Virus record (IMG/VR): IMGVR_UViG_3300046734_000631 | Coordinates: 1 to 20,066 of that record | Length of the DNA: 20,066 nucleotides | Source: a virus | Direction: 5' to 3' (one strand) | Shown: one piece after another, positions 2,322 to 18,693 of the stretch | Numbering within the stretch: position 1 is the stretch's first letter | Layout of the letters: each line of letters starts with the position of its first letter | Made by a program: the position numbers and the translations under genes | Notes under the pieces: model-generated | What the model was told of the DNA's origin: nothing | The model's database searches: none | Seen by the model: the letters and a program-made list of their open reading frames with translations, nothing else

Positions 2322-4028
2322 CTATGAATATGTAAATGTAACTCTTAAATTTTCTCCGGCCGTACCACTACCGACTTGTGTGATATCCAATGTCATATAA
2401 TCATCTGCATTCAACGAAAAACTTGGATTTGTATCTTCTTGTTTTGTTGAACCAGCAGCAATGGACATTGTTTTAGTAGTAGTCGCTCCACCAGAAACTT
2501 TGTTTATTGTTATATTTATACTACTTCCAGCTGCAACTGTATCAACCCTTGCAATTATTTTATTTACCACAATATTTCTTGGGGCATACCATCTTTTAGT
2601 TCCTGTTGTTACTAAAAGTTCGCCTTCCTGTACAAGACTAACGACACCCAATCCAACACCACCACCAGTTAATAATCCAGAACCATCAGAGAGTTCGTTT
2701 ATATCTGTGGGTACTGTTGGTTTGTTTGTCAAATCATTAAAATCATTAGAAGTGGCCACGGTAGACAATGTTGGTAAATTTGTTAAATTATTATAATTTA
2801 CACTAGTAACACTCGTTTGGGCAATTTGTCCTATTTTTGTTTCAACTTCTGCATGAGAATTAAGATAGTCATTCATATGAGTTGGTACAAATTTTGTTCC
2901 ATCATACATTAAACATGCAGTAGTTGGTATTACTGGCTTGTCTTTGATCAAAAACGATGTCTTATGTCCAAATTGTGTGTGTTGAAAGTAAATCCTAATA
3001 GAATTGTCTGCGTCACCCAACACATCAACTTCTAAATCTTTTACATGAATTGTACCTTTCATTCCGCTATGATTTGCACACTGATAATATAGTGTATCAG
3101 GAGCATCATTGGGAACTGTAAACGTGAGAGTGCCGACTTCTGTTCTAGACCCAGAGACACCGTTTGTATATTCTCCAACATAACCACCTTGTGTCCAGTT
3201 TGTGCCATCATCTGTTGTTAAATAAAATGGATGTCCTGTAACATTTAAATTAAACGTATAAGTTCCGCCACGATAAACTGCTTCAATATCTGTACCATGG
3301 ACAATATCTATATCATATGCACCAGAATTTGTAGAAACATTCATAGAAATAGATGGCGCAACTAAGGTGATATCAGATGCTGAAAAATCGGATGGAATAG
3401 TCCATACATGTTTCTGCACCTGTGTGTTTCCGCCAGCCACCGAATTAAAACGATCTTCTGTAGTGCTTGTTACGCCTGGAATTATATTATCTGTACCCGC
3501 TCCTAAAACTGATTTTAAATAACCGGCATGTGTCTGTGTCATATCTCCATATTGTGTATATGCAAAGTTTACAAAGGTATATGTTCCTTCTCTATAGAGT
3601 GGTACTTCCGTTTCTGAACTTGAATTTGTAACTGAACCTCTACCATATAACAAAGTTTCTCCCCAAGTCCAAAACCAATTCATTCCATGGCCACCTTCGT
3701 TTGCATTCACAACCAATTCCATATTTTCTGGAATTAGTGATACATCTAAATCTGGTGAAGCAATAGATGCAGAACTTGTAAGTTGACCATCTGTAATTGA
3801 TAAATTTTCATCTCCAAGATAAATTGTACCAGATGATAGATAGATATCTCTAAATTTCTTATCTGCAGAACCTAAATCGTATGTTAATGTTGTATCTGGT
3901 AATACATGACCAGTAATAGGACCATTAATAGGCGCAACAGTGATTTCCCACGTACCTGTCGTAGCATTATACGCATATCCTTCGTGAGTATCCCCATCAC
4001 TTGGACTATCTGGAAAATTAATTGCCAT
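2322..4028 (-). CDS. Tail-fibre-like protein with a cupredoxin-like domain
   Basis: The 568-residue product starts at ATG 4026-4028 after AGAAGGAT. Residues 1-35 are the MAINFPDSP module. Residues 38-80 (VLPDTTLTYDLGSADKKFRD, IYLGD) match a segment of the 207-residue protein at 9337-9960. Residues about 240-332 form a cupredoxin-like domain: RGGTYTFNLNVTGHPFYL supplies His266, and YYQCANHSGMKGTIHV supplies Cys317, His320 and Met323. The C-x2-H-x2-M spacing equals that of amicyanin, so all four type-1 copper ligands are present. Residues 410-450 hold NLTNLP/DLTNKP repeats common in phage fibres, and 465-568 form a beta-rich C-terminal domain beginning ELLVTTGTKRWYAPRN. Fibre role is inferred from architecture; copper binding is a prediction, and a metal-free structural fold is equally possible. 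Confidence 0.85.
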   Translation of the reverse strand: MAINFPDSPSDGDTHEGYAYNATTGTWEITVAPINGPITGHVLPDTTLTYDLGSADKKFRDIYLSSGTIYLGDENLSITDGQLTSSASIASPDLDVSLIPENMELVVNANEGGHGMNWFWTWGETLLYGRGSVTNSSSETEVPLYREGTYTFVNFAYTQYGDMTQTHAGYLKSVLGAGTDNIIPGVTSTTEDRFNSVAGGNTQVQKHVWTIPSDFSASDITLVAPSISMNVSTNSGAYDIDIVHGTDIEAVYRGGTYTFNLNVTGHPFYLTTDDGTNWTQGGYVGEYTNGVSGSRTEVGTLTFTVPNDAPDTLYYQCANHSGMKGTIHVKDLEVDVLGDADNSIRIYFQHTQFGHKTSFLIKDKPVIPTTACLMYDGTKFVPTHMNDYLNSHAEVETKIGQIAQTSVTSVNYNNLTNLPTLSTVATSNDFNDLTNKPTVPTDINELSDGSGLLTGGGVGLGVVSLVQEGELLVTTGTKRWYAPRNIVVNKIIARVDTVAAGSSINITINKVSGGATTTKTMSIAAGSTKQEDTNPSFSLNADDYMTLDITQVGSGTAGENLRVTFTYS

Positions 4029-4035
4029 CTTTATA

Positions 4036-6510
4036 TTATCCTTCTAATGAAGCAGTTGGTGGTGTAAAGTTTGCGGTGTATCTTGCTAAACCTTTAGTGA
4101 TACGGAAGTCTTGCATATACCCCCCAAAGTAATTTGAAGTTGTATCATCCTTGCCAATCTGAACAGGTTGACTTGATCCATAATTTCTAGAGTCTGAATA
4201 CGTTGAACTTGCGGCTGTACCGTTAAAGTACATTGTAGTTGTTCCAGAGTTTTTAACTATAGCCAAATGTTGCCAAGTATTAAAACTTAAAGTGTCGGTT
4301 GGGTAGTAAAATATCCCACCTGAGAACATTTGAACTCGTCCAGTATTATACATACCAAGGCCAAAACTACCTGTCTCAGTACCCGCACCAACTCGTGTGT
4401 CAAATATTGCGTTAAACCCACCAGTTTTTGTGCAATACAGCCAAGTCTCGATTGTCCAATCACCTGTACCAAAACCATATGCTTCATCATCTGAAATAGA
4501 AATATAATCTCCAGAAGCATCAAAATACATTGACTTAGTACTAGCAAACTTAGCCTGAGTAGTTGATCCAGTAGTATTACCTACCAGCTTTAAGTTAGCG
4601 CCTTGAGATTTATCTATAATAGAAGCGTCAGTGCCTTTGATATGTAGTTCTGTGCCAGTTGAAGATAGAGGGGCAGTTGGTGGAGTGAAGCTTGAAGTGT
4701 AAACAGCAGATCCTCTGGTGTACCTAACATCGGATACTTTGCCAAGGCCCATGCGCCACCACCCATCATTACCTATACGAAGATCGGCATTAGTGAGATT
4801 AGTACTAAATGCTTCAGTATTTTGTAAAGATCCGTTCACAAATAATCGTAGATTTGTACCATCATAAGTAATAGCTGCATGATACCAAGTTTTTACCTGT
4901 AGCGCCTTATTGCTTGATGGTGTCATAAACCAAGAGTCGTTTGCATAAACAGCAAATCCGCCAGCTGAGGGGTTTTGGTACATCAGCCTTACGCCGTCAT
5001 AATTGTCTGAACCTTTGAAGGAAATTATAGACTGGTTGTTGCCATTAGAAGTGTTTGGAAATTCATCCCAATACACCCAACATTCAACCGCAAAACTTCC
5101 AGACGATGGAGCTGTTACTGTAGACTGCACCCAAGCACTTGTGCTGTTTATCACTATGGACCCACCGTGATCAGTTACTGAGTATTCTATGTAGTCGTGT
5201 GGTGTATCATTAACTATAGATATACCAGAATTTGCTATTGTAAGTGTTTTAGGAGAAGAACTTTTATCTCCATGATAAGGTAATCCGCAACCCAAAAACA
5301 CAGTTCCAGTTGTAGGTTCGGCAGCACCATCGGCATACGTTGAATCTGGTTCATATGCATAACCTTTTACTATATGTAAGTCTTTTATATAAGCCTTTAA
5401 GTCACTAGTACCGTTTTGTTCCTCGCCCATTTTGAAATTTTGTGAAGTGTAATTAGTACTATCTGTAAAAGTTGTAGCTTGTGTACCATTAACGAATACT
5501 TTATTATTACCTGATCCATCACGAGTCCAACAGAAATGTTGCCAAACATCTTGACTTGAGGTTGACGTACTACTTAACCAAGTATTTGAATAGGTATAAA
5601 AAGTAATATTATTTACTGACATCATGACGCCAGGATTAATACCATCATTGGTATCAAATATAGTTCCGAGATATTGATGTAATAATTTCACCCAAACCGA
5701 AATTGTAAATGCACCAGTACCAAACGCAAAATCACTTGAAGGAGATGCGTATAATACATTAGCAGCAGTATCTTCAAAATAAGTAGAATAACCTCTACTT
5801 CTGTAAGGGCTGAACGTACCAGCGTAGGCATCGCCATTTACGGTAATGCTATGATTATTCGAAGATGTATCAGTAATGTTGTTGTTGTCTGACGTACCAG
5901 TTGCTGTCGCTAACAGAGTAGTATATCTACTATTTGCAACTATAAATACAAAATCTAATGTAAACTGAGATTGTGAACCAGACTCACCACCTTGACCATC
6001 AGATGCGGCAAACCTTAAAGTAAAAGTACCAGCGTCTGCAGCGTCTGTGCTTGGTGTAATAGTAAATACATTATTAACATTAGTTACTGTTGTACCCCCA
6101 AGCGAACCTGAGATGACGCTATGTGACCAAACAATTGGAAATCCTTCTGGGTCAGAAGAACTTAGTGTGACTGTTGTTGGAGTACCATCCGCAGCCAAGT
6201 CATATATTGCTGCATTTCCAGTGATACCACTAGGAGATGCATTTTGTAGTGATGACATTAACCACCACCCACTTAAAAAATAAACATACATCTTATTAAC
6301 ACTAGATACTAATGCCATGTCACCGGCACTTGGGGATGATGGCAATAAATCATGCGTGGCAACTACTGTTGTAGATCCTACAGTAGATAAGTCTGCTTCC
6401 GTTACCTGTGTCGGAGTCCAAGTATTCTTCGTAGAATTGTATGTGTAATTCTTGCCACCTACCGTTGCCACCTGGCCATTTGTTGGACTATCTGGAAAAT
6501 TAATTGCCAT
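4036..6510 (-). CDS. Tail-fibre-like adhesin with three LamG-like domains
   Basis: ATG at 6508-6510 follows AAGGAA. The 824-residue product starts with MAINFPDSPTNGQ. It has a degenerate MYVYFLSGWWLM module (about 73-86) and the DPEGFPIVWSHSV cadherin/He_PIG-like domain (about 90-187). Three tandem concanavalin/LamG-like domains follow, at about 195-405, 410-613 and 616-822. Each shows the family pattern: a strand with FxIxxWV or WTIETWLY, then DVWQHFCWTRDG, TWYHAAITYDG or TWQHLAIVKNSG, then VFVNGTQ, LFVNGSLQ or MYFNGTA, then a closing DLHIVKGYAY, DVRYTRGSAVY or DFRITKGLARY. LamG folds often bind carbohydrate, so an adhesin for surface glycans is the natural inference. The gap before this gene (6511-6589) is among the longest in the fibre block. 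Confidence 0.87.
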   Translation of the reverse strand: MAINFPDSPTNGQVATVGGKNYTYNSTKNTWTPTQVTEADLSTVGSTTVVATHDLLPSSPSAGDMALVSSVNKMYVYFLSGWWLMSSLQNASPSGITGNAAIYDLAADGTPTTVTLSSSDPEGFPIVWSHSVISGSLGGTTVTNVNNVFTITPSTDAADAGTFTLRFAASDGQGGESGSQSQFTLDFVFIVANSRYTTLLATATGTSDNNNITDTSSNNHSITVNGDAYAGTFSPYRSRGYSTYFEDTAANVLYASPSSDFAFGTGAFTISVWVKLLHQYLGTIFDTNDGINPGVMMSVNNITFYTYSNTWLSSTSTSSQDVWQHFCWTRDGSGNNKVFVNGTQATTFTDSTNYTSQNFKMGEEQNGTSDLKAYIKDLHIVKGYAYEPDSTYADGAAEPTTGTVFLGCGLPYHGDKSSSPKTLTIANSGISIVNDTPHDYIEYSVTDHGGSIVINSTSAWVQSTVTAPSSGSFAVECWVYWDEFPNTSNGNNQSIISFKGSDNYDGVRLMYQNPSAGGFAVYANDSWFMTPSSNKALQVKTWYHAAITYDGTNLRLFVNGSLQNTEAFSTNLTNADLRIGNDGWWRMGLGKVSDVRYTRGSAVYTSSFTPPTAPLSSTGTELHIKGTDASIIDKSQGANLKLVGNTTGSTTQAKFASTKSMYFDASGDYISISDDEAYGFGTGDWTIETWLYCTKTGGFNAIFDTRVGAGTETGSFGLGMYNTGRVQMFSGGIFYYPTDTLSFNTWQHLAIVKNSGTTTMYFNGTAASSTYSDSRNYGSSQPVQIGKDDTTSNYFGGYMQDFRITKGLARYTANFTPPTASLEG

Positions 6511-9987: not shown

Positions 9988-11457
9988 TTATACATGTCGT
10001 AATACAAAAATACCACTGCCACCTTGGCCGACATTCGCGTCGAGATACGAATCAGTCTTGCCTCCACCACCAGATCCAGTTCCATTTGTTCCATTGGTCG
10101 GTGCTATCTCAGTGGAAGAATTACCGTATTTCCCACCATTACCACCAAGTCCATAACTAGTGGTTGCATGAGAAGTACCTTGAAAAGTGGCGCCAGTAGC
10201 ACCTTCTGCATAGTATTGAGCACTACCTGTCTCTATCGAATTAGCTCTTGGATCGCCGGATGCGCCCTGAGTGCCAGCCGCGCTGCCTGCGCCGCCACCG
10301 CCGCCTCCATAATCGTTGCCCCATTTGTTGCCGCCGTTATTACCATATTCATGGAATGATTCACCACCAAATGCGGTAAATGCTCCTTTTGCTTGTGCGA
10401 TAGATGTACCAGAAGAATTGTCGGGCCCTGTATCACCACCACCAGAACCACCGTTAGAAGTTGCCAAATTACCACTCCAACCTCTACCAGCACCACCACC
10501 CAAGGCAGTCATAGAGTCTCCAGTAGTAGTATTTGTTAATACTGTATTTCCACCAGTACTCCCACTGCCATCATTGGATGTTGCACCAGATCCACCGGCA
10601 CCAACTGAAATGGTATAATTACCAGCCGGCAAAGTTACCTCAAACCCTTCGACCATTCCACCAGCGCCACCGCCGCCACCGGCAGCATTACCATCACCAC
10701 CACCGCCACCACCGCCGACCATTAATAAGTCGTACTTGGCTGTAGTTGGAATTGTGAAACTACCACTCCCAGAGGTTAGTTTTTTAATTAAATAATCACC
10801 ATATGCAGCTGCACTTAGTCCAGATACGTTTGTGACCTCACCATTAATCGGTAGAAAGTTAAGACTAAATGCTGAGGCCACGGATGTCGCACCAGAACTA
10901 CCATCAGTAACACTAAATGTTAGAGTAAATGTACCAGCATCTGATGGATCGTTTGTGCCTGGCGTTATAGTAAATACATTTTCATTTTGTGAAACAGTTG
11001 CTGTTGTACCAAGAGAACCAGATGTGACTGCATAACTCCATGTTAGGGGGAACCCTTCGGGGTCTGTGGATACTGCTGTAATCACTGTAGGTGTTCCATC
11101 AGATTCTAGTGAATAAGATCCATTTACTCCAGTGATTGCAGTTGGAGAATTGTTTTCAAGTGTTGCAATTTTCCACCAACCAGATCCATTATATGCATAC
11201 ATATTATTATTTGCAGTAACCAAAGCAAGATCACCAGAAGACATTCCAGTTACAGCAATTAATGCTGGCAGGTCTGCATAAACAGTTGCACCACCAGAAC
11301 CTAATAGTCCACCAGTGTCTGTTAAATCGGAAATATCTGTATTAGTTGTGCCAGCGACAATTTCCCATCTTGCTTTAGTGGAATTATATTCAAATGTCAT
11401 AGACCCAACATCAAATGCTTGGCCATTTGTTGGTGAATTTGGAAAATTGATTGCCAT
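9988..11457 (-). CDS. Tail-fibre-like adhesin with polyglycine-rich tip
   Basis: ATG at 11455-11457 follows AAAAGGATAA. The 489-residue product runs: MAINFPNSPTNGQ module (1-35), TDISDLTDTGGLLGSGGATV (40-60), GDLALVTANNNMYAYNGSGW (75-95), cadherin/He_PIG-like domain with DPEGFPLTWSYAVTSGSLG (about 103-202), then a glycine-rich domain from about 230 to the end. That domain has runs of six to eight Gly (VGGGGGGGDG, YGGGGGGAGS), an AGNYTISVGAGGSGA strand and the ending QGGSGIFVLRHV, typical of glycine-rich tip domains of environmental phages. Gly-rich motifs also build the polyglycine-II sandwich of the Salmonella phage S16 gp38 adhesin; similarity to it is by composition only. Receptor binding is inferred. 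Confidence 0.86.
   Translation of the reverse strand: MAINFPNSPTNGQAFDVGSMTFEYNSTKARWEIVAGTTNTDISDLTDTGGLLGSGGATVYADLPALIAVTGMSSGDLALVTANNNMYAYNGSGWWKIATLENNSPTAITGVNGSYSLESDGTPTVITAVSTDPEGFPLTWSYAVTSGSLGTTATVSQNENVFTITPGTNDPSDAGTFTLTFSVTDGSSGATSVASAFSLNFLPINGEVTNVSGLSAAAYGDYLIKKLTSGSGSFTIPTTAKYDLLMVGGGGGGGDGNAAGGGGGAGGMVEGFEVTLPAGNYTISVGAGGSGATSNDGSGSTGGNTVLTNTTTGDSMTALGGGAGRGWSGNLATSNGGSGGGDTGPDNSSGTSIAQAKGAFTAFGGESFHEYGNNGGNKWGNDYGGGGGGAGSAAGTQGASGDPRANSIETGSAQYYAEGATGATFQGTSHATTSYGLGGNGGKYGNSSTEIAPTNGTNGTGSGGGGKTDSYLDANVGQGGSGIFVLRHV
11175..11250 (-). repeat. DNA block shared with 13132-13207
   Basis: These 76 bases differ from 13132-13207 at only two positions by eye. They encode the NNNMYxYNGSGW segment of two neighbouring fibre genes. 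Such DNA-level identity, next to much more divergent flanks, points to recent duplication or gene conversion. Confidence 0.85.
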
Positions 11458-16482: not shown

Positions 16483-18693
16483 TCAATTTCCCTTGGTTTT
16501 CTCTATATTTATAATATCAATTATATTGCGATAATTTTTTAATTCATTCGGCGTCATAACTAATTCCATAAAAGGAGTATCTTTCAAATAAGTGTCTCTT
16601 AAAGTTTTAGTACCAAACTCTCCACCACCGGCCTTTGGTAATTTTGGTGGATTTTCTGCACCAGACAATGATTCATGCACTGTTTCCTCTGGTACACAAT
16701 TTGGTACTTCTTTTCCATTTTTCATTTTCATACCGACTTGTTTATAGCCAGGCCAGCATGGGCCATTATTTTCTTTTTTATCTTTGGTATCTTTTGACAT
16801 AGAACCTTTTTTGACAACACCAGATTTTTTGATTTTGTTTATCAGTTGCATTCGTCTTTTACTAGTAATTTCATCTATTTTATCTAGCGAAAGTTCTTCT
16901 CTCATTCTAGGTTCTTTTCTATTATAGTGTTGAGTTACTAATGATAGATTTTTTGGATCATTGTTTAATGGATTATTGTCTTTGTGATGTACATCTTTAC
17001 CATCACCACGTTTTGCTTTACCGGCCTTTTCCATTGCATATCTTGCACGTTTTCTGGCACGATTTTTTTCCATCTGTTCTGGAGTGCCATGATAGTTTTC
17101 ACGTTCTTTTTTATAATCTCTATCTTCTTCAACACTTTCTTTTTTTACTTTTGCAGCAAGATCTTTATCTGCACCACCCCATGTACCAGATGATTTCGTA
17201 ACAAAAGAATTGACTCTTGCAAATGCCCATTGTTGTGGAGTAGTGCCTGGCCTATGTCCAGATTTCCATGCAGCCATACCTCTATCATATACCTTTTTAA
17301 GTATACTGTATGGCATACCAGACTTATCTGCCTTTTTTCTTAGTCCGTCAATCTGCTCACCAAACATATCTTTATATTTTTTCGTATGTTTAGATGGTTT
17401 AGTTTTTGCATTTGCATCACCTGGCGCTGGTTTATATGACTTATCATCACCATCTGGTTTGTCTGCCTGTTTCTTGAAATGTGCTGCACGCTTTTCTTTC
17501 GTACCCTTAGACATATCATCACCATCAGCATCTTTTGCATAATACTTTTTAGGTTGAGTGCCTTCTTTGTCTTTTACATCTGGGTCTTGGGCAGTTTTTC
17601 TTTCTGATATAAAACTAGAAAAATCTTTCATTTCGTTTTCTTCATATTTCATAACTTTACTAGAAGTACTAAAATTTTTCTTTCTCATAATAGTTTTTGT
17701 AACCAATTCAAATTCACCATTATTGTAGTTGATAACTACAGGCAAATTTAAGTCAGTTGAGATATCTTTTAGTACAGCCTCTATATCAGGATTTGATAAG
17801 ATATTCTTACCTTTATTTTTTTGTATCTTTTTAAATAATTTTTGCAACTCTGCAATTTTAATATCTGGAGAGTTTCTAGAATCATTCATTCTATCTGCAA
17901 AGTGTTTCGTAAATGTAACATCAATGTTAAATTTTGCAAGTAATTTATCTGCAAACTTCTCTAAATCTCCAACTTGTTTTTGAGATACCTTTTCATAAAT
18001 CATATCAAAGACCTCATCATTAGATGACTCTCCTATAGTATCAATGAAACCAGAATTCATAAATTCTGAGAATAATTCTGCATCACCCAACCACAATCCA
18101 AATTCGGTATTTTCAACTTTCATTGCCTTTCTGATCGCAGTGTATAATTTTTTACCATCAGTCCTTTCAAACTTTGATGGTAAACCGTTTTTAAAACTAT
18201 CATAATCATCTGCAGCTGCAGCAGCTCTCATCTTAGATGCAGACATACCAGTAACACCTTCTGCATCTGGGTCTCTTTCCCCTGCGGAATATATCTTAAT
18301 ACCACCCTTAAAATCATAAAGTCCGTGTCTGCCTTCAACACCATTATACTTGTTTAATAAAGTTTTAAACTCTGTAACTCTATCTCCACCGACAACCATT
18401 GCACATTCTTTATATCCCATTTCATATAAAATTGTTGCAACATTAATTGCAGTTTTTGCTTTATTATTTGAAATGATATTTCTTGAATATTTTGGAAACA
18501 TCTTTTTCATAAATCTGACTTTGGTCTTAAAATCAAGAGGATCTTTTTTTGGATTTTGAGAATGACTTGGAAAGACCATAAAATCTGCGGCCTCTTTTTT
18601 AGCGACTGCAGCAACCTTTTCAATTAACTTTTCGTGTCCAGTAGTTGGAGGATTAAATCTACCAAACGTAAAAACAATTTTATCCTTCGCCAT
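16483..18693 (-). CDS. Fusion: nucleotidyltransferase + conserved domain + HNH-nuclease-like domain
   Basis: ATG at 18691-18693 follows GAGGGATAA and overlaps the previous gene by 14 bases. Residues 1-195 are a nucleotidyltransferase of the NMNAT/cytidylyltransferase superfamily: GRFNPPTTGH (11-20) is the HxGH-type motif, VVGGDRV (100-106) follows, and GMSASKMR (149-156) corresponds to the ISSTxxR motif. Residues about 240-345 form a second domain (FTKHFADRMNDSRNSPDI, ending TIMRKKNF) found with it in marine phages. MKDFSSFISER (355-365) looks like a capsid-targeting peptide buried in the chain. Residues 447-512 (YSILKKVYDRGMAAWKSGHR, FARVNSFVTKSSGTWGGADK) resemble the DUF5824-type domain. 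Residues 525-596 carry an HNH-like core, DVHHKDNNPLNNDPKNL. A Cys-containing segment (GPCWPGYKQVGMKMKNGKE) follows. Substrates are unknown; virion packaging is inferred. Confidence 0.82.
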   Translation of the reverse strand: MAKDKIVFTFGRFNPPTTGHEKLIEKVAAVAKKEAADFMVFPSHSQNPKKDPLDFKTKVRFMKKMFPKYSRNIISNNKAKTAINVATILYEMGYKECAMVVGGDRVTEFKTLLNKYNGVEGRHGLYDFKGGIKIYSAGERDPDAEGVTGMSASKMRAAAAADDYDSFKNGLPSKFERTDGKKLYTAIRKAMKVENTEFGLWLGDAELFSEFMNSGFIDTIGESSNDEVFDMIYEKVSQKQVGDLEKFADKLLAKFNIDVTFTKHFADRMNDSRNSPDIKIAELQKLFKKIQKNKGKNILSNPDIEAVLKDISTDLNLPVVINYNNGEFELVTKTIMRKKNFSTSSKVMKYEENEMKDFSSFISERKTAQDPDVKDKEGTQPKKYYAKDADGDDMSKGTKEKRAAHFKKQADKPDGDDKSYKPAPGDANAKTKPSKHTKKYKDMFGEQIDGLRKKADKSGMPYSILKKVYDRGMAAWKSGHRPGTTPQQWAFARVNSFVTKSSGTWGGADKDLAAKVKKESVEEDRDYKKERENYHGTPEQMEKNRARKRARYAMEKAGKAKRGDGKDVHHKDNNPLNNDPKNLSLVTQHYNRKEPRMREELSLDKIDEITSKRRMQLINKIKKSGVVKKGSMSKDTKDKKENNGPCWPGYKQVGMKMKNGKEVPNCVPEETVHESLSGAENPPKLPKAGGGEFGTKTLRDTYLKDTPFMELVMTPNELKNYRNIIDIINIEKTKGN
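16506..16513 (-). promoter_or_regulatory. T4-type late promoter (TATAAATA) inside the end of the upstream gene
   Basis: The minus strand reads exactly TATAAATA, 24 bases before the ATG at 16481, almost the same spacing as the site at 13765-13772. It overlaps the last codons of the 736-residue gene. The repeated position relative to a start codon favours a real promoter, though AT-rich coding sequence can produce the octamer by chance. Confidence 0.55.

Follow-up and report, generated by a model that had tools for sequence, protein, structure and literature searches.

Cupredoxins of the plastocyanin/amicyanin type (PF00127, Copper-bind) are free electron carriers whose four copper ligands follow the order His, Cys, His, Met, with a C-x2-H-x2-M loop in amicyanin. 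Marine phages are already known to encode one such protein, the plastocyanin PetE, an auxiliary metabolic gene of cyanophages (PMC3037559, PMC2984593) that occurs as a free gene of 320-370 bp for host electron transport (PMC3037559). Metal sites on phage virions, for their part, have so far been discussed mainly as iron HxH sites, in which paired histidines hold octahedral iron, as described for the fibres of T4 (gp37) and Alteromonas phage R22Y (PMC11705849). The locus discussed here touches on all three. Its domain of interest is predicted to share the fold, the ligand order and the amicyanin-like loop of the PF00127 cupredoxins, but it lies within, or at the end of, virion or secreted proteins and is not a free electron carrier, has a Pro after the first His ligand (HPF), and as a single sequence stays below the Pfam cut-off. 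Like PetE it is a cupredoxin of marine phages, yet it is a module within virion-type proteins and not a free gene. Like the HxH fibres it would place a transition-metal site in a fibre, although of the cupredoxin kind; an HxH iron site was rejected for this protein, which has no two His two residues apart. Cupredoxins and cyanophage PetE being known, what appears to be new is that phage virion proteins contain a putative type-1 copper module; our search of the literature on phage virions for cupredoxin, plastocyanin or copper, with subscription papers and preprints outside its range, found no earlier report of one.

The domain was found in a window of 20,066 bases, the whole stretch of viral DNA analysed, which contains a run of minus-strand fibre-like genes. 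Its carrier, a protein of 568 aa (Table 1), begins with MAINFPDSPSDGD, resembling the starts of the ORFs at 4036-6510, 9988-11457 and 3-695, and part of it matches PHROG 677, "baseplate wedge tail fiber protein connector". The fibre-type gene cluster, the common N-terminal start and the PHROG tail matches all point to a fibre-like product, that is, a putative phage tail fibre or virion protein. Matches to a cytidyltransferase gene of the window place the phage among the marine T4-like Kyanoviridae, near Methylophilales phage Melnitz, which has one copy of the domain, and Pelagibacter phage HTVC008M, in which none was detected. The later parts of this cytidyltransferase gene (16483-18693, minus strand) resemble HNH endonuclease and unknown PHROG families, which gives its product the look of a fused, multi-part protein.

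Table 1. Positions in the window of the fibre-like gene, its two domains and the predicted copper ligands.
Feature	Position	Strand	Basis
Fibre-like protein, 568 aa, carrier of the cupredoxin domain	2322..4028	(-)	Open frame
Upstream domain, residues ~95-223	3360..3746	(-)	41-sequence alignments A1 and A4
Cupredoxin domain (predicted), residues ~224-332	3033..3359	(-)	AlphaFold, VIA-align matches to cupredoxins, blue copper profile matches
His266, predicted copper ligand	3231..3233	(-)	Kept in 54/55 viral representatives
Cys317, predicted copper ligand	3078..3080	(-)	Kept in 54/55 viral representatives
His320, predicted copper ligand	3069..3071	(-)	Kept in 54/55 viral representatives
Met323, predicted axial copper ligand	3060..3062	(-)	Kept in 55/55 viral representatives

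Kinship with cupredoxins emerges from the family rather than from any one member. The window sequence alone scores 16.2 bits against PF00127 (E=0.014), below the cut-off of 21.2 bits, and single-sequence searches of Pfam and, with phmmer, of the PDB gave only sub-threshold or unrelated matches, so that a family profile was needed. The 21.2-bit gathering score is a detection threshold, and what is claimed here is homology and a site that looks able to work, not a Pfam listing. One cellular relative, a bridging sequence, does pass Copper-bind (26.5 versus 21.2 bits). A profile built from 16 diverse phage copies of the domain (A2) retrieves from the PDB copper nitrite reductase (1e-4), plastocyanins (from 4e-4) and amicyanin (9e-3), unrelated chains appearing only from E 0.19. 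Identity as an amicyanin proper was ruled out for the window domain, which scores 11.6 bits against the equivalog cut-off of 110.2 of the NCBIfam model TIGR02657, a value that the gp9 homologue of Synechococcus phage S-SCSM2R (21.2 bits) does not reach either.

The predicted structure agrees. An AlphaFold model of residues 86-400, made with 41 homologues, has a mean pLDDT of 83.8, with block means of ~88-96 in the domain, and puts Cys317 at the end of a strand, Met323 before the next strand and His266 before a strand, a placement around the ligands that is that of cupredoxins. VIA-align matches cupredoxins over residues 139-247 of this model. The best match is rusticyanin (2cal; Z 10.5, rmsd 2.2 A over 99 residues); auracyanin, AcoP and domains of nitrite reductase and laccase come next, all listed rows being cupredoxin-fold copper proteins of the blue-copper or multicopper type. 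Besides rusticyanin, the best structural matches include the extra cupredoxin domain of Hyphomicrobium nitrite reductase (2dv6, Z 9.2); both are respiratory proteins to which the phage domain is ~20% identical, and the spacing of the rusticyanin Cys-His-Met loop differs from the C-x2-H-x2-M of the phage domain. On this modelling, residues ~224-332 are confidently predicted to adopt the cupredoxin beta-sandwich fold. A reading as a two-domain multicopper oxidase or nitrite reductase, raised by Foldseek rows spanning ~300 columns, was rejected on their rmsd of ~14-24 A, and is also contradicted by VIA-align, which supports mainly residues 224-332, and by the upstream domain, which modelled alone gave low confidence and no significant PDB match, a result that does not establish a new fold. 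That upstream domain accompanies the cupredoxin domain in fibre homologues and has invariant W, G and H columns in the two alignments of 41 sequences. The model of residues 86-400 also matches by fold two predicted "beta-sandwich proteins" in BFVD, A0A481Z6J5 and A0A481YVH3, of the giant viruses Pithovirus LCPAC302 and Marseillevirus LCMAC201.

The initial annotation had proposed a cupredoxin layout with ligands at residues 266, 317, 320 and 323 and amicyanin-like spacing, and had named conservation of the four ligands in fibre homologues as a check. The layout is borne out by the fold and profile matches just described, and the sequence has the residues as stated, in the canonical His-Cys-His-Met order and with Cys317, His320 and Met323 spaced C-x2-H-x2-M. 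The pattern H-x30-70-C-x2-H-x2-M is found once across all six frames of the window and was reproduced by 88 of 200,000 shuffles of the 568-aa protein; conservation is stronger evidence than these shuffle statistics. All four ligands are intact in 150 of 151 distinct full-length viral copies and in 26 of 26 cellular ones, so the frequent loss that would have spoken against the site is not seen. Among 55 viral representatives, whose identity has a median of ~38% and a minimum of 15%, four of the five most conserved of the 79 columns are those of the ligands, while positions between and beside them are more variable than average (entropy 2.1-3.0 bits, mean 1.9). Because profiles reward the motif, and fully degenerate copies may thus be undercounted, gp9 genes were also picked by their N-terminus alone; all 51 distinct C-termini have intact ligands, in a set that is less discriminating, with a minimum identity of 59% and a median of 77%. 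Fibres chosen by the upstream domain gave the same picture (25 of 25 reaching the region intact), in a set overlapping that of the 151 copies. Three partly degenerate copies were seen: one in Synechococcus phage RB11-B (L090/L262, a 782-aa tail fiber repeat protein), where Phe, Ala and Val replace His, Cys and His; a second copy in S-RIM4, without the Met ligand; and one in S-CAM4, without the second His ligand. The degenerate copy of RB11-B offers a natural metal-free comparison; this phage also holds a second, intact copy.

That ligands are kept while the residues between them vary argues for selection on the metal site and not just on a borrowed beta-sandwich, an option that the initial annotation had entertained and that is now disfavoured. 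In its fuller form this option holds that descent or folding accounts for the retained ligands and that the domain carries no metal in the virion. Little free copper is available in the cytoplasm, where virions assemble, which puts copper loading in doubt and counts for a metal-free domain, as does the existence of ligand-losing copies such as that of RB11-B. We nonetheless consider it rather unlikely, since intact ligands amid variable neighbours are what nearly every viral copy displays, loss being rare and, in RB11-B, striking three ligands together, and since the lone Cys is kept with no disulfide partner in the domain. Cys317 is the sole Cys of the cupredoxin segment, the other of the 568-aa protein being residue 372, and an intradomain disulfide therefore does not explain its conservation. 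Cytoplasmic assembly would also suit a real site that holds another metal in the virion, for example zinc, which recombinant cupredoxins often take up; the near-invariant axial Met, typical of copper sites, and the fact that the solved relatives found are copper proteins make this very improbable. Profile, predicted fold and ligand conservation together thus lend good support to a phage-fibre cupredoxin domain whose type-1 site is intact, and the site would be expected to hold copper in the virion.

The initial annotation had considered one fibre protein, but the domain proves to be widespread as a virion module of marine phages. At E below 1e-5, tblastn matched 257 phage records, which are labelled Synechococcus, cyanophage, Prochlorococcus, marine or uncultured, and a search with a second copy as query matched 355 records with E below 0.01, with a gp7 baseplate initiator among the matches. 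In hundreds of cyanophages the carrier is gp9, the baseplate wedge tail-fibre connector, and this is how most matches are annotated; there the cupredoxin domain forms the C-terminus, the N-terminus matching T4_gp9_10_N. Other carriers are myovirus fibres, T7-like fibres (one matching PF03906), the collagen-like fibre of P-SSM2, and subtilase-like virion proteins (one matching PF00082); those of cyanophages S-H9-1 and S-CAM4 (L085:2210-4216 and L091:2168-4216) end in the domain. A scan of IMG/VR returned 413 pattern matches, of which 408 are related to the window domain. Each of 13 phage records, chosen for carrying the domain, has 1-4 matches, and a 140.9-kb contig with a 100% identical domain has four. 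Profile iteration on the loci drifted into fibre repeats, and the drifted rows were excluded from later counts. Cellular relatives occur in marine Bacteroidetes, Alphaproteobacteria, Bdellovibrionales, Halobellus and other bacteria and archaea, often with the domain at the extreme C-terminus of long proteins that are probably secreted.

Derivation from phage PetE was rejected, as cellular surface-type proteins are much closer (45-52%) and the sole "PetE" match is itself a gp9 homologue. That gene (L084:1162-1668; PQ898602.1, Synechococcus phage S-SCSM2R) is 62% and 82% identical, over two stretches, to S-SSM7 gp9, and both genes adjoin a subtilase-like gene. Its label is probably a misannotation due to the cupredoxin C-terminus.

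Where the module sits, and what surrounds its ligands, bears on two further roles, each possible in itself. One is a copper "Trojan horse", in which a receptor in the outer membrane of the host, specific for copper or its chelates, would recognise the copper-loaded domain. It draws on the fibre location, on carriers that are almost all marine among the phage records, and on the iron version proposed for phage fibres (PMC11705849). However, the module occurs most often in gp9, which is a connector and not a receptor-binding tip, and is also found at the end of subtilase-like virion proteins; positions so diverse argue against one receptor, the variable surface beside the ligands speaks against the docking of a single conserved partner there, and no copper receptor was identified, so that we regard this role as unlikely. 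The other is redox: the domain would exchange electrons with a partner at the host surface or in the periplasm, or act as a redox trigger at attachment. His2-Cys-Met is indeed the electron-transfer site of the blue copper proteins matched by profile A2, but the variable positions flanking the ligands leave no conserved docking patch and speak against a single shared redox partner, the 20,066-base window contains no recognisable gene for such a partner, and the contexts of the carriers are structural and diverse, which together make a redox role quite unlikely.

A copper-locked structural or binding module is preferred over either role. The most satisfactory account, which we consider probable as a whole, is that residues ~224-332 form a genuine cupredoxin domain, that copper serves as an internal lock in its intact His2-Cys-Met type-1 site, and that this domain is a mobile module in fibres, baseplate connectors and other exterior proteins of marine tailed phages. 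Copper would be taken up in the host or after release and, as our best guess at mechanism, would lock together the loops of a small, disulfide-free sandwich; the metal-locked sandwich could then offer a robust exposed module for fibre or baseplate connector joints, or for binding. The wider proposition, that marine tailed phages commonly bear loaded type-1 copper centres, in several proteins per virion, as functional metal modules of attachment and baseplate, is plausible, although we lean slightly towards doubting it.

Structural annotation is gained for the C-terminus of cyanophage gp9 and for many hypothetical virion proteins, together with the caution that virion cupredoxin domains can be misread as photosynthetic PetE genes. 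A simple prediction follows: cyanophage particles, once purified, should contain copper and show a blue band. Through a conserved type-1 copper module in their baseplate connectors and fibres, the attachment of abundant marine phages would be linked to copper chemistry, and copper may be present on many marine virus particles; if so, phage particles would constitute a pool of copper ligands in seawater, and phage fibres would count as a new class of blue copper protein.
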